This document shows positions 30,452-33,952 of a stretch of 64,000 nucleotides of DNA, piece by piece. The notes below the pieces were generated by a model. It did not search any database, was not told the DNA's origin, and saw only the letters and a list, made by a program, of their open reading frames with translations. This DNA comes from Pseudomonas sp. JM0905a (GTDB taxonomy: Bacteria > Pseudomonadota > Gammaproteobacteria > Pseudomonadales > Pseudomonadaceae), in assembly GCF_014700075.1 (NCBI RefSeq), contig NZ_JACXBU010000005.1:62001-126000 (forward strand), given 5' to 3'. A program made the position numbers and the translations under genes. The stretch's first letter is position 1. Each line of letters begins with the position of its first letter.

Positions 30452-32488
30452 CTAGGCTTCGCTCCCACACGCCGCCTGTATCGCCGTCAACGCGATGGTG
30501 TGGATGATGTCGTCCACCAGGACATTGCGCGGCAGGTCGTTCACCGGTTTGCGCAGGCCTTGCAGCATCAGGCCGCCGCTCACCACGGGGTGGCTCTGCT
30601 GCGCGTCCTTGTAGGCGGCATCGCCGGTGGCGAGGTCGGGGAAGACGAATACCGTGGTGCTGCCCTCGCGGGTGGCGGCGGACCAGGGCAGGGGGCCTTC
30701 GATGGTCAGCTCGGGGCGCGCGGCGCGGGCCAGGCGGGCGGCTTCGCGGACCTTGGCCAGCGCGGCTTCATCGAGCGAATCGCAGATCATCGCCACGCGC
30801 GGCACGATGCCGAGGGCCTCGGCCGAATCCGCGCTCTGCAGGGCGATTTCCGCCAGGTCGCTGGCATCGGGCTCGGGGTTCACCGCGCAGTCGCCGTAGA
30901 CCACCACCTGTTCCGGCAACAGCATCAGGTAGACGGAGGAGGCGATGCGGTAGCCGGGCGCCGACTTGATCAGTTGCAGCGCAGGACGGATGGTGTTGGC
31001 GGTGGGGTGGATGGCGCCGGACACCAGACCGTCCACCTCATCCAGCGCCAGCATCATGGTGCCCAGCACGACGTTGTCTTCCAGCTGGGCGGTGGCCATC
31101 GGCGCGTTCAGGCTCTTGTTCTGCCGAAGGTCCACCATGGGCTGCACGTAGCGTTCACGGACAAGTTCCGGATCGAGGATTTCCAGGCCTTCGGGCAAAT
31201 CGATGCCATGGGCGCGGGCTACCGCGTGCACGTCCTCCGGCCGGGCCAGCAGTACGCAATGGGCGATGCCACGAGCTTGGCAGGCGGCGGCTGCCTGCAC
31301 GGTGCGCGGCTCGCTGCCTTCGGGCAGGACGATGCGCTTGCCGGCGAGCTGCGCCTGCTGGATCAGGCGATGGCGGAAGGCTGGTGGCGACAGGCGCTGG
31401 CTCGCGCTGGGGGCGCCACACCGGGCGCGCAGCCAGTTGAGGTCCAGGTTGCGGGCGACGAATTCGGTGACCTTCTCCGCGCGCTCGCGGTCGTCCACCG
31501 GGATTTCCTTGTTCATCCGGTTCAGGTTGGTCGCCGTGTCGTAGGTGCCGGTGGCCACGCCCAGTACCGGCAGGCCGCCTTGCAGGGCGCCACGGCAGAG
31601 TTCCAGGGTGCGCGGGTCGGGCTGGATGTCACTGGAAAGCAGCAGGCCGGCGAGCGGTACACCGTTCATGGCGGCGAGGCTGGCGGCAAGAATGATGTCG
31701 TCGCGGTCGCCCGGCGTCACCACCAGTACACCCGGCTTGAGCTGCTGCACGGTGTTGGGCACGGTGCGTGCGCAGACCACGATCTTCTGCACCCGGCGCT
31801 GGTCGTAATCGCCGGCGTTGATGACCTGCGCCTGCAGCAATTCGGCGACGTCGCGGGTACGCGGTGCGTTCAGCTCATCCAGCCAGGGCACACTGCCGAG
31901 CAGGCGGAAGTCGTCGCCGCGCAGAAGGGGCGACTGGTCCTTGAGGCGGCGGGTGAACTCTTCGTCGCGCACCTTGTTGAGGATCACCCCGAGTACCTTC
32001 GGGTCGCGCGGGCCGCCGAATTGCTGGGCCTGGATCTCCAAGCGGTCGGACAGTTCGGAAAGGCTTTCATCTTCCGGCGCCGACACCAGGATCACATCGG
32101 CGTCGAGGCTCTTGGACAGGTGGAAGTTGATCCGCGCGGCGTAGCTGGCATGGCGGGTCGGCACCATGCCTTCGACGATCACCACGTCCTTGCCTTCGGC
32201 CGCCAGGTGGAACAGGCCGGTGATCTCATCCAGCAGTTCTTCCAGTTGGCCGTCGGCGAGCATCCGCTCGACGTGGGACTGGGACAGCGGCATCGGGGGC
32301 TTCAGGCCGTGGGTGCGTGCCACCAGTTCGGTGGAGCGTTCGGGGCCGAGGTCGCCGGGGTGTGGCTGGGCCACGGGCTTGAGGAAGCCGACCTGCAGGC
32401 CAGCCAGCTCCAGGGCGCGCACCAGGCCCAGGCTGGTGGAGGTGAGGCCGACGCCGAAACCGGTCGGGGCGATGAAAAAGCAGTGCAT
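30452..32488 (-). CDS. pta: Phosphate acetyltransferase homologue with altered active-site regions
   Basis: 678 residues. N-terminal P-loop-like DRTGG-type domain (IAPTGFGVGLTSTSLG) and a C-terminal phosphotransacylase domain are both present. Compared with my recollection of E. coli Pta, the Gly-rich YSTGTSG loop after RVAM is replaced by CDSLDEA, and about 17 residues (the KAPNSPVAGR block) are absent after GPL, where PWSAATREGS now stands. The GPMLQG motif is SGGLMLQG. The Arg and Asp of ND-P-R-N-V-L-V-DD are retained. ATG 32488 follows AAGGAG; the longer frame overlaps ackA. It is cotranscribed with ackA 22 bases upstream. Retention of full frame and ribosome-binding sites suggests a functional, perhaps altered, protein. 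Confidence 0.85.
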   Translation of the reverse strand: MHCFFIAPTGFGVGLTSTSLGLVRALELAGLQVGFLKPVAQPHPGDLGPERSTELVARTHGLKPPMPLSQSHVERMLADGQLEELLDEITGLFHLAAEGKDVVIVEGMVPTRHASYAARINFHLSKSLDADVILVSAPEDESLSELSDRLEIQAQQFGGPRDPKVLGVILNKVRDEEFTRRLKDQSPLLRGDDFRLLGSVPWLDELNAPRTRDVAELLQAQVINAGDYDQRRVQKIVVCARTVPNTVQQLKPGVLVVTPGDRDDIILAASLAAMNGVPLAGLLLSSDIQPDPRTLELCRGALQGGLPVLGVATGTYDTATNLNRMNKEIPVDDRERAEKVTEFVARNLDLNWLRARCGAPSASQRLSPPAFRHRLIQQAQLAGKRIVLPEGSEPRTVQAAAACQARGIAHCVLLARPEDVHAVARAHGIDLPEGLEILDPELVRERYVQPMVDLRQNKSLNAPMATAQLEDNVVLGTMMLALDEVDGLVSGAIHPTANTIRPALQLIKSAPGYRIASSVYLMLLPEQVVVYGDCAVNPEPDASDLAEIALQSADSAEALGIVPRVAMICDSLDEAALAKVREAARLARAARPELTIEGPLPWSAATREGSTTVFVFPDLATGDAAYKDAQQSHPVVSGGLMLQGLRKPVNDLPRNVLVDDIIHTIALTAIQAACGSEA

Positions 32489-32510: not shown

Positions 32511-33677
32511 TCAGGCAAGCAGGGCCAGGGTGTCGAGGGCGATCTGGCGTTCTTCGTTGGTCGGCACCACCAGCACGCGCGGATGGCCGCGCTTGTGGAT
32601 GGGGCCGGCGACGCCACGCACGCAGCGTGCGTTGGCTTCGCGGTCGATGGCCAGGTTGAGCAGCTTCAGGTGATCCACCGTCCGGCTGCGCACAAGGGGT
32701 GAATTCTCGCCGATCTCGCCGGTGAAGATCAGCCCATCCAGCTGTGGCAGCGCACAACCCACGGCGGCCAGGGTCCTGGCCAGGCGGTAGCAGAAGACTT
32801 CGATGGCCAAGGTGGCGCCGGCGTGGCCCTGGTCGCGGGCCTGTTCCAGGCTGCGCATGTCGCCGGCCAGTTCCGAGAGGCCGAGCAGGCCGCTTTCCTG
32901 GCGAAGCACCTGGTCGATTTTCTCCAGGCTCCAGCCGAGGCTGCGGTGCAGCTGGGTGTAGAGGTGCGGGTCGATGTCGCCGCTGCGCCTCGCCATCACC
33001 AGGTTCATGCTGGCGTCGCGGCTCTGGCCGTTGACGATGGCGCAGGTGGAACAGTGCTCGCCCAGATGGGCGGAGAGCCAGCAGCTGTCACCGAGGGAAA
33101 GCCCGGCCAGTTCGGCAGCACGGCGGCTGACATAGCGGTGGCTGTTACCGTGGAAGGCATAGCGGCGCAGGCCGTGGTCGCGGTAGACGATGTCCGGCAG
33201 GGCGAGGCGGTAGACGTGCTCGGGCATGCTCTGGTGGAAGGCCGTGTCGAACACTGCGACATGGGGCAGGTTCGGCAGCAGGTGCATGGCGGCGTCGATG
33301 CCCACCAGGCTGGCCGGCATCTGCTGCGGCGCCAACGGGACCAGGGCCTGCAGGCGGCGGACCACCTGGGCGTCCACCCGGCAGGCGGAGGTGAACAGCT
33401 CGCCGCCATGCAGCACGTGATGGCCGACGCCGTGCAGCTTGCCGCCGGCGGCGCCCTGCACGATGGGCAGCAGCTGCGACAGCGCGGCGCGGTGGTCGGC
33501 GTTGGGGATCATCAGGCTGTCCTTGTCGCCGCCGCGCTGCCAGCGCAATTCCGCGTCGCGGCTGCCGAGTCCGTCGGCCATGCCGTGGAGGATGAACTGG
33601 CTGTGGGCTTCGTTGACCAGGGCGAAGCGCAACGACGTCTTGCGCGCGTGGATCACCAGGATGTTGCGTGCGGGCAT
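32511..33677 (-). CDS. ackA: Acetate kinase homologue with replaced catalytic residues
   Basis: 388 residues, full length for acetate kinase. The fold markers remain: [24 protein letters not shown] and TNEERQIA. Key catalytic segments differ: the N-x-G-S-S-S phosphate loop reads [10 protein letters not shown], the Arg of HRVVHGG is His (HHVLHGG), HLGNGxS is HLGEHCS, about six residues of SMGLTPLEG are missing ([14 protein letters not shown]), and FTGGIGEN is FTGEIGEN. Acetyl-phosphate formation therefore seems unlikely in the usual way. The ATG overlaps the upstream DUF3565 stop by one base and follows GAGGAA. Acyl-kinase activity on another substrate, or a regulatory role, is possible. Confidence 0.85.
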
Positions 33678-33952
33678 CAGGTTTCCTCAGTGGACTCGGG
33701 CGCCAGGCCCTGGGCGCACCAGCCGCAGGGGAACAGGCGACCCAACTGGGCGGCGCGCAGTTCGGGGTCGAGCACCCAGGTGCGTGACTGCCAGGGCGGC
33801 TGGTGCCGCAAGTGCTGAGTATGGCCGCAGGAAAGCACCGCCACCCAGTGACCGTCTTCGTCTTGCCTGTAGCCGACGAGCCGGGGCCGCCCGTCAGCGT
33901 TCGGGTCGCAATCGACCGGCCGCGCGGTTAAACTTGCGCTTTCATCATTCAT
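33677..33952 (-). CDS. DUF3565 domain protein
   Basis: 91 residues, hydrophilic, with a C-G-H motif ([16 protein letters not shown]) and a C-terminal CGWC pair. Four cysteine/histidine sites could bind zinc, as in DUF3565 members. I cannot assign a reaction. Its TGA overlaps the ackA ATG in TGATG, so it is the first gene of a DUF3565-ackA-pta unit. It is divergent from slyD with 18 bases between start codons. Confidence 0.8.

Follow-up and report, generated by a model that had tools for sequence, protein, structure and literature searches.

Introduction

The phosphotransacetylase-acetate kinase (Pta-AckA) pathway belongs to the textbook routes of bacterial metabolism and is the classic source of acetyl phosphate. 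The window analysed here, a whole stretch of 64,000 nucleotides from Pseudomonas sp. JM0905a (contig NZ_JACXBU010000005.1), holds a homologue of ackA whose reading frame is intact and whose active-site segments depart from those of the family, which raises the question of what such a protein is kept for once the residues that define an acetate kinase have been replaced. An initial annotation, made from the DNA letters alone, had read the gene as a pseudokinase or as an acyl kinase of new specificity; it overlooked the ablation of pta, the next gene after ackA.

Identity and genomic context of the gene

The frame, intact and of 388 codons as the initial annotation had it, lies on the minus strand, is open over its whole length between ATG and stop, and occupies the position usual for ackA in Pseudomonas; the coordinates of this and all other features are collected in Table 1. 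Its membership of the acetate kinase family follows from homology over the whole domain: the Pfam profile PF00871 matches residues 6–380 with 326 bits, and the general NCBIfam model for ackA, TIGR00016, is passed with 312 bits against a cut-off of 293.4. The protein falls far below the narrower equivalog cut-offs of NCBIfam, and its best matches among solved structures are Salmonella-type propionate kinases and bacterial acetate kinases. A profile search returned it as the single PF00871 gene of its genome, which rules out a paralogue standing beside a normal AckA. Similarly, a second full-length Pta was ruled out, since the other PF01515 match of the genome is a weak one, in a frame of 337 residues that is common to all 18 genomes of the genus.

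Table 1. Features of the ackA-pta locus (positions in the window; residue numbers of the reference enzymes are marked Mt)
Feature	Position	Strand	Remarks
ackA homologue, 388-aa pseudo-acetate kinase	32511..33677	minus	open frame; PF00871, 326 bits
HARKTS replacing PHOSPHATE1 NxGSSS (residues 10–15; Mt N7–S12)	33633..33650	minus	residue alignment
His87 replacing catalytic Arg91 (Mt numbering)	33417..33419	minus	H in 13/13, R in 77/77 canonical
QQMPAS replacing LHNPAN (residues 118–123; Mt L122-H123-N124)	33309..33326	minus	residue alignment
HLGEHCS replacing PHOSPHATE2 HLGNGxS (residues 204–210; Mt 208–214)	33048..33068	minus	N211 lost, G212H, 13/13
Junction M224-N225, six LOOP3 residues (Mt 229–234) deleted	33003..33008	minus	13/13
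Glu321 replacing ADENOSINE Gly331 (Mt numbering)	32715..32717	minus	E in 13/13, G in 77/77 canonical
DUF3565 gene directly upstream of ackA	33677..33952	minus	gene start approximate
pta homologue of 678 aa with an ablated catalytic domain and a conserved N-terminal part	30452..32488	minus	ATG at 32488; Shine-Dalgarno-like AAGGAG upstream
Pta AAA_26 (P-loop-like) domain	31862..32479	minus	PF13500; strong purifying selection
Pta DRTGG domain, most constrained part in the clade	31514..31852	minus	PF07085
Pta PTA_PTB catalytic domain, ablated and relaxed	30482..31378	minus	PF01515, 267 bits
Pta junction, SYSTGDSG substrate loop lost (net 4-aa deletion)	30779..30784	minus	14/14 clade members
Pta junction, about 13 residues (APNSPVAG segment) deleted	30665..30670	minus	13/14; G001 keeps the segment
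Pro653 replacing catalytic Ser of DLSR (Mt Ser309)	30530..30532	minus	13/14; G001 keeps Ser

Distribution among genomes

The altered AckA of 388 residues was found in 13 of the 18 genomes of the genus, its own included, at 87–100% identity, and a normal AckA of 394 residues in three (71–72% identity). In G009, which has a canonical Pta, ackA is split into two overlapping pieces in different frames (L115 4067–5244) that were left unjoined. G010 was the genome without ackA among the 18 searched; the gene is gone from between DUF3565 and the dead pta (L117 8397–8519), and the frame of the latter is open. The 14 genus members made up of the 13 with an altered AckA and G010 are referred to below as the clade.

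A scan of named species was evaluated for the best 80 of 247 loci encoding a relative, of which six proved altered (Pseudomonas sp. BN411, P. resinovorans DSM 21078, P. taiwanensis xwS3, BN417, BN102 and P. boanensis DB1); these are presumably six of the 13 altered genus genomes. The diagnostic positions are normal in the other 74 loci, as they are in the three genus members with a normal AckA. Before the counts, rows were dropped that repeat genus genomes (L001, L020–L025), represent the split gene of G009 (L018–L019), come from a locus without Pta (L062), carry a partial Pta (L052) or are a fragment (L138); one outgroup comparison set comprised 73 AckA and 72 Pta sequences, L062 being left out of its AckA part as well.

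Losses in the active site of AckA

Numbering follows the Methanosarcina thermophila (Mt) enzyme (sequence of PDB 1g99), and the canonical set consisted of 77 rows, 75 of them distinct, as L016 and L017 repeat L026 and L034. Every motif substitution quoted in the initial annotation, FTGEIGEN included, was recovered in the window; its loss of about six residues from SMGLTPLEG amounts to exactly six, and the scaffold motifs VFDTAFH, SGLLGLS and TNEERQIA are intact, as it had described.

All 13 AckAs of the clade carry N7H, G9R, S10K/R/A, K14R, R91H, V93L, L122Q/D, H123Q, N211E/A/D/L, G212H, a deletion of residues 229–234, G235N and G331E, and 12 of the 13 carry G239A; the 77 canonical rows show no variation at the altered positions apart from residue 230, which is L in 75 and M in 2. 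For instance, in PHOSPHATE1 the His and Arg at residues 10 and 12 of the window protein are found in 13/13 clade members, at the places where Asn and Gly stand in every canonical row. The three ATP-binding motifs (PHOSPHATE1, PHOSPHATE2 and ADENOSINE, through N7, G9, N211, G212 and G331), LOOP3 and the acetate-site Arg91 are thus altered together; the acetate-site Arg241 is retained. Other residues kept in 13/13 are D148, T149, H180, H208, D283, R285, N335 and E384.

The proposal that catalytic residues had been selectively replaced holds statistically: among the columns that never vary in the canonical rows, all 13 clade members have a replacement at 17 of the 38 that lie in active-site motifs versus 7 of 113 elsewhere (odds ratio 12, Fisher p = 2.6e-7, a value that is somewhat flattering, the motif list having been drawn up with knowledge of the finding). 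This enrichment, together with the sharing of the changes by 13 genomes of different species, rules out chance, and with it the sequencing errors whose detection the initial annotation would have taken as a refutation.

Published mutants indicate what such changes cost singly. One paper gives 0.3% of kcat for R91A in the archaeal (Mt) enzyme (PMC6461089), and another reports a 6- to 200-fold loss when Ala, Ser, Thr or Gln is placed at N211, G239 or G331 of an acetate kinase (PMC4390882). Because all these positions have changed together and six loop residues are gone, acetate kinase activity would be very unlikely in the AckA of the clade. Two otherwise canonical AckAs, L059 and L083, have HIPVN instead of HNPAN.

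Ablation of the neighbouring phosphotransacetylase

The pta homologue belongs to the phosphotransacetylases by its PTA_PTB homology (PF01515, 267 bits). Among the elements on which catalysis depends, namely the Ser, Arg and Asp equivalent to Mt S309, R310 and D316 and the substrate loop, Arg and Asp are kept, whereas Ser has become Pro and the loop is deleted; the Ser309 equivalence was checked on the 1qzt alignment. Loop, VAG segment and Ser are all kept in the four canonical Ptas of the genus and in 72 outgroup Ptas, the first Ser/Thr pair of the loop being Ala in two canonical Ptas. The PF01515 scores are 396.6–401.5 bits in the four canonical genus members, 340 in G001 and 251–280 in the other 13. 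G001 has the dead AckA and the Pta loop deletion, yet it retains the catalytic Ser and the PVAG segment. In Porphyromonas Pta, mutating the equivalent Asp, Ser or Arg led to complete loss of activity, according to PMC6461089.

According to PMC12724200, the N-terminal part of E. coli Pta is required for full activity and oligomerisation, a mutation in the DRTGG domain of Salmonella Pta changed activation by pyruvate and left inhibition by NADH as it was, and the function of DRTGG is called unknown.

A phosphoketolase (XFP) match occurs in one of the 18 genus genomes, namely in G001 (G001:C1:309925-310428), the one clade member whose Pta retains the catalytic Ser.

History of the losses

A tree was built of six neighbouring proteins from the 18 genus genomes and four outgroups, GGDEF-EAL being missing in five of these 22 and plsC in one. 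It unites the 14 clade members with an ultrafast bootstrap of 87, with G001 as the deepest branch and the other 13 joined at 93; G004, G008, G009 and G017 fall outside. Since this tree is coherent and the flanking genes are syntenic in the stretches read, the ablation of AckA and the loss of the Pta loop would most simply have happened once, on the stem of the clade, and the remaining Pta losses after G001 had split off, with the deletion of ackA in G010 later still. A single origin of the losses is moderately supported, and horizontal replacement was ruled out by the same synteny and coherence.

Selection after the loss

All 13 ackA and 14 pta frames of the clade are open over a parsimony synonymous tree length of about 1.8–2.5 per site. 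Estimates of omega for the ackA of the clade depend on the method and are all far below 1: the NG86 median is 0.12 (78 pairs), against 0.25 for the canonical genes of the genus, a value which rests on three pairs; the maximum-likelihood (ML) value is 0.066 versus 0.081 in 22 canonical genes; and the parsimony value is 0.14 versus 0.16. Divergence is greater in the canonical comparison sets than within the clade, and IQ-TREE was run with kappa 1.0. By NG86, the neighbouring genes of the clade stand at 0.085 (fkbp), 0.17 (plsC) and 0.044 (gpx). The argument of the initial annotation that random decay would not spare the surrounding residues is therefore sound, selection after the loss having been purifying. 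The 19 replaced aligned columns hold 16 nonsynonymous changes where about 79 would be expected at the synonymous rate of the gene, and 10 of 13 replaced active-site positions show no amino-acid change on the clade tree.

In Pta, the ML omega is lower in the clade than in canonical genes for AAA_26 (0.046 versus 0.087) and DRTGG (0.021 versus 0.063) and higher for the catalytic domain (0.096 versus 0.060), which is relaxed but far from neutral, with a parsimony omega of about 0.2 in the clade. The nonsynonymous-to-synonymous odds ratio of the N-terminal to the C-terminal part is 0.40 in the clade, against values of 1.27 and 1.57 for two canonical sets, with z of −7.8 and −9.7; one of these sets, set B, is the first 24 in order of 45 eligible loci (L054–L099). 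The shift is weak in orphan Ptas, those without an orthologous AckA (z −1.7 and −3.1; DRTGG omega 0.129). Judged from these substitution patterns, the constraint on Pta has moved from the catalytic domain to the N-terminal regulatory domains.

Signals for translation have been preserved as well. The TGA of the DUF3565 gene overlaps the ATG of ackA in the string TGATG (window 33677–33679), which is kept in 13/13 clade members and suggests translational coupling, and a Shine-Dalgarno-like AAGGAG precedes pta in 13 of 14. Two properties expected of a pseudoenzyme are seen here: residues that active homologues need for catalysis are missing, and purifying selection has continued since they were lost.

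A probable pseudoenzyme pair and its alternatives

Four features of the locus can be read at the level of sequence: catalytic elements have been lost, purifying selection has continued, constraint has shifted to the N-terminus of Pta, and translation signals have been kept. From them we infer that activity is absent, that the genes are expressed and that the products have a sensing or scaffold role. Between the two options of the initial annotation, the pseudokinase is the better one, as the motifs and Arg91 are altered together, and a new acyl-kinase specificity is less likely; the loss of catalytic elements from the neighbouring pta as well suggests that the pathway disappeared as a whole, not that the substrate changed. 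Accordingly ordered, the evidence favours the view that ackA and pta form a conserved pseudoenzyme pair with a non-catalytic role, probably in sensing or regulation and centred on the N-terminus of Pta.

The ancestor of the 14 sampled species would then have lost the active site of AckA (its ATP and acetate sites) and the substrate loop of Pta, and after the deepest branch had split off, the others would have lost the catalytic Ser and the second active-site segment of Pta, both genes being kept by selection for proteins that act without need for the acetate reaction. The AAA_26 and DRTGG domains might serve as a metabolite sensor or partner binder and the dead catalytic domain of Pta as an oligomerisation scaffold, whereas pseudo-AckA might be a ligand-binding accessory, dispensable in one species, whose assets would be Asp148, His180, His208, Arg241, Arg285 and Glu384 besides the newly fixed His, Arg and Glu. 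A fuller version, possible but tentative, holds that the module has been converted as a unit into a non-catalytic, selected one, in which the P-loop/DRTGG part of Pta would sense metabolites or regulate proteins in Pseudomonas independently of acetyl phosphate, and the fixed His, Arg and Glu of pseudo-AckA would form a new site for a ligand in the old cleft; if true, a second and general function of class II Ptas would be exposed, present also in species whose enzymes are active.

Several findings weigh against a pseudoenzyme pair: eight classic catalytic positions of AckA are invariant, as they might be in a protein that still performs chemistry, the Pta catalytic domain remains far from neutral, G010 shows that pseudo-AckA can be lost, and the clade bootstrap of 87 lies below 95. 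Acetate activation need not depend on the ackA-pta operon, since AcsA-type enzymes score above cut-off in 18/18 genus genomes. Supply of acetyl phosphate by other enzymes was considered as the cause of the loss and rejected, with Xsc above cut-off in none of the 18 genus genomes and XFP in G001 alone.

Neofunctionalisation, in which pseudo-AckA would have acquired a new active site (the new His, Arg and Glu along with the retained Asp148, His180, Arg241 and Glu384) for another acyl substrate, phosphoryl donor or reaction and Pta would have changed alongside, is unlikely, although ten of the replaced active-site positions hold a fixed residue throughout the clade and the eight classic positions are kept in 13/13. 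Against it, N7, G9, R91, H123, N211, G212, six LOOP3 residues and G331 have all been lost at once; at N211 the clade varies between E, A, D and L, which would not be expected of a new catalytic residue; the catalytic parts of Pta disappeared stepwise and selection there is relaxed; and one species has deleted ackA. A precedent exists in the pyrophosphate-using acetate kinase of Entamoeba histolytica, which, going by its description in PMC4390882, is also altered at N211, G239 and G331; that enzyme is active, however, and the window protein is also without Arg91 and the six LOOP3 residues.

Slow decay of the pathway, with relic genes whose frames survive because inactivation is recent, because of their place in the operon or through weak residual use, appears quite improbable. 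The openness of all 13 ackA and 14 pta frames despite the synonymous tree length given above, an AckA omega as low as that of active relatives and the tighter N-terminal domains of Pta oppose it, even if the relaxed catalytic domain, the stepwise accumulation of losses from G001 to the rest, the missing ackA of G010 and the split ackA of G009, a neighbour whose Pta is canonical, would be in keeping with it. An ordinary acetate kinase with tolerated substitutions is a very remote prospect: the strong whole-length similarity and the passing of TIGR00016 would agree with one, but residues singly important in tested enzymes have been lost simultaneously, and Pta has been ablated in parallel. A sequencing or assembly artefact, for which nothing spoke, can practically be dismissed, since the changes are shared by 13 genomes whose phylogeny is coherent and of which six are assembled into one or two contigs.

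Comparison with known systems

The window AckA shares with the enzymes of M. thermophila and Salmonella (PF00871, TIGR00016) its whole-length homology, genomic position and scaffold motifs, along with Asp148, His180, His208, Arg241, Arg285 and Glu384, and differs in that PHOSPHATE1, PHOSPHATE2, ADENOSINE, LOOP3, Arg91 and His123 are altered or lost. Similarly, the window Pta has the AAA_26, DRTGG and PTA_PTB domains of class II Ptas, the position after ackA, the Arg of DLxR and the Asp at Mt 316; it departs from them in the deleted loop and second segment, the change of Ser to Pro and the shift of selection to the N-terminus. A ChrS variant and EcpK, examples of bacterial pseudokinases, are likewise kinase homologues described as pseudokinases with cellular roles, but these are histidine kinase and tyrosine kinase homologues rather than small-molecule kinases of the acetate kinase fold. 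Pseudoenzymes are a known kind, and novelty would lie in a dead AckA and a dead Pta kept as a conserved operon; no such case was found in print, in a search that had most subscription papers outside its reach.

A lineage that keeps both proteins after catalytic loss separates catalysis from any other role, and the function of the Pta N-terminal domains becomes testable in it without interference from changes in acetyl phosphate. Moreover, annotation by homology would assign these species an AckA and a Pta that they probably lack, as the passing of TIGR00016 by the window protein illustrates.

Related phosphotransacetylases and acetate kinases across the family

The change of the DLSR serine to proline was followed with a DNA pattern for KP(V/I)NDLPR, run over 298 sampled genomes of the family, and 78 of them matched (13 in the own genus, 64 in g14 and one in g9). 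A comparison of handles by eye shows no high-scoring AckA in any of the 65 matching genomes outside the genus: 58 are without a PF00871 match and seven have a low-scoring match only (six of another ACK subfamily, one more divergent). Conversely, 0 of 39 g14 genomes with a high-scoring AckA match the pattern, again by eye. Exceptions to a strict rule are G091, which is without AckA and has a Pta without the pattern, and likewise the incomplete G065 and G250. The single g9 genome, G137, has no PF00871 match and is possibly a third independent case.

Nine such Ptas from Pseudomonas without an orthologous AckA were read directly (L129–L137, g14; seven without PF00871, two with another ACK only). 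They resemble the window Pta in the proline, present in 9/9, and differ in that their loops are retained and tight constraint persists on the catalytic domain (omega 0.082). The Ser-to-Pro change alone is therefore weaker evidence than the deletions. Such Ptas may still be enzymes, altered rather than dead, and may retain activity. The pta of P. putida KT2440 is described as functional in PMC7789669.

Pseudo-AckA was also sought in the 298 genomes, the low scorers and two normal AckAs being read and the high scorers judged by score only. Seven low scorers (G187, G215, G221, G249, G256, G272 and G019) were rejected as members of other ACK subfamilies; they keep N7, G9, Arg91 and Gly331, with N211 replaced by Ser in G249 and G019. 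The AckA relative of G190 is more divergent, and that of G248 is a fragment. L120–L126, from six g14 genomes and one g3 genome, encode acetate kinases of another subfamily, 34–39% identical to the reference queries, in which most of the catalytic motifs are preserved.
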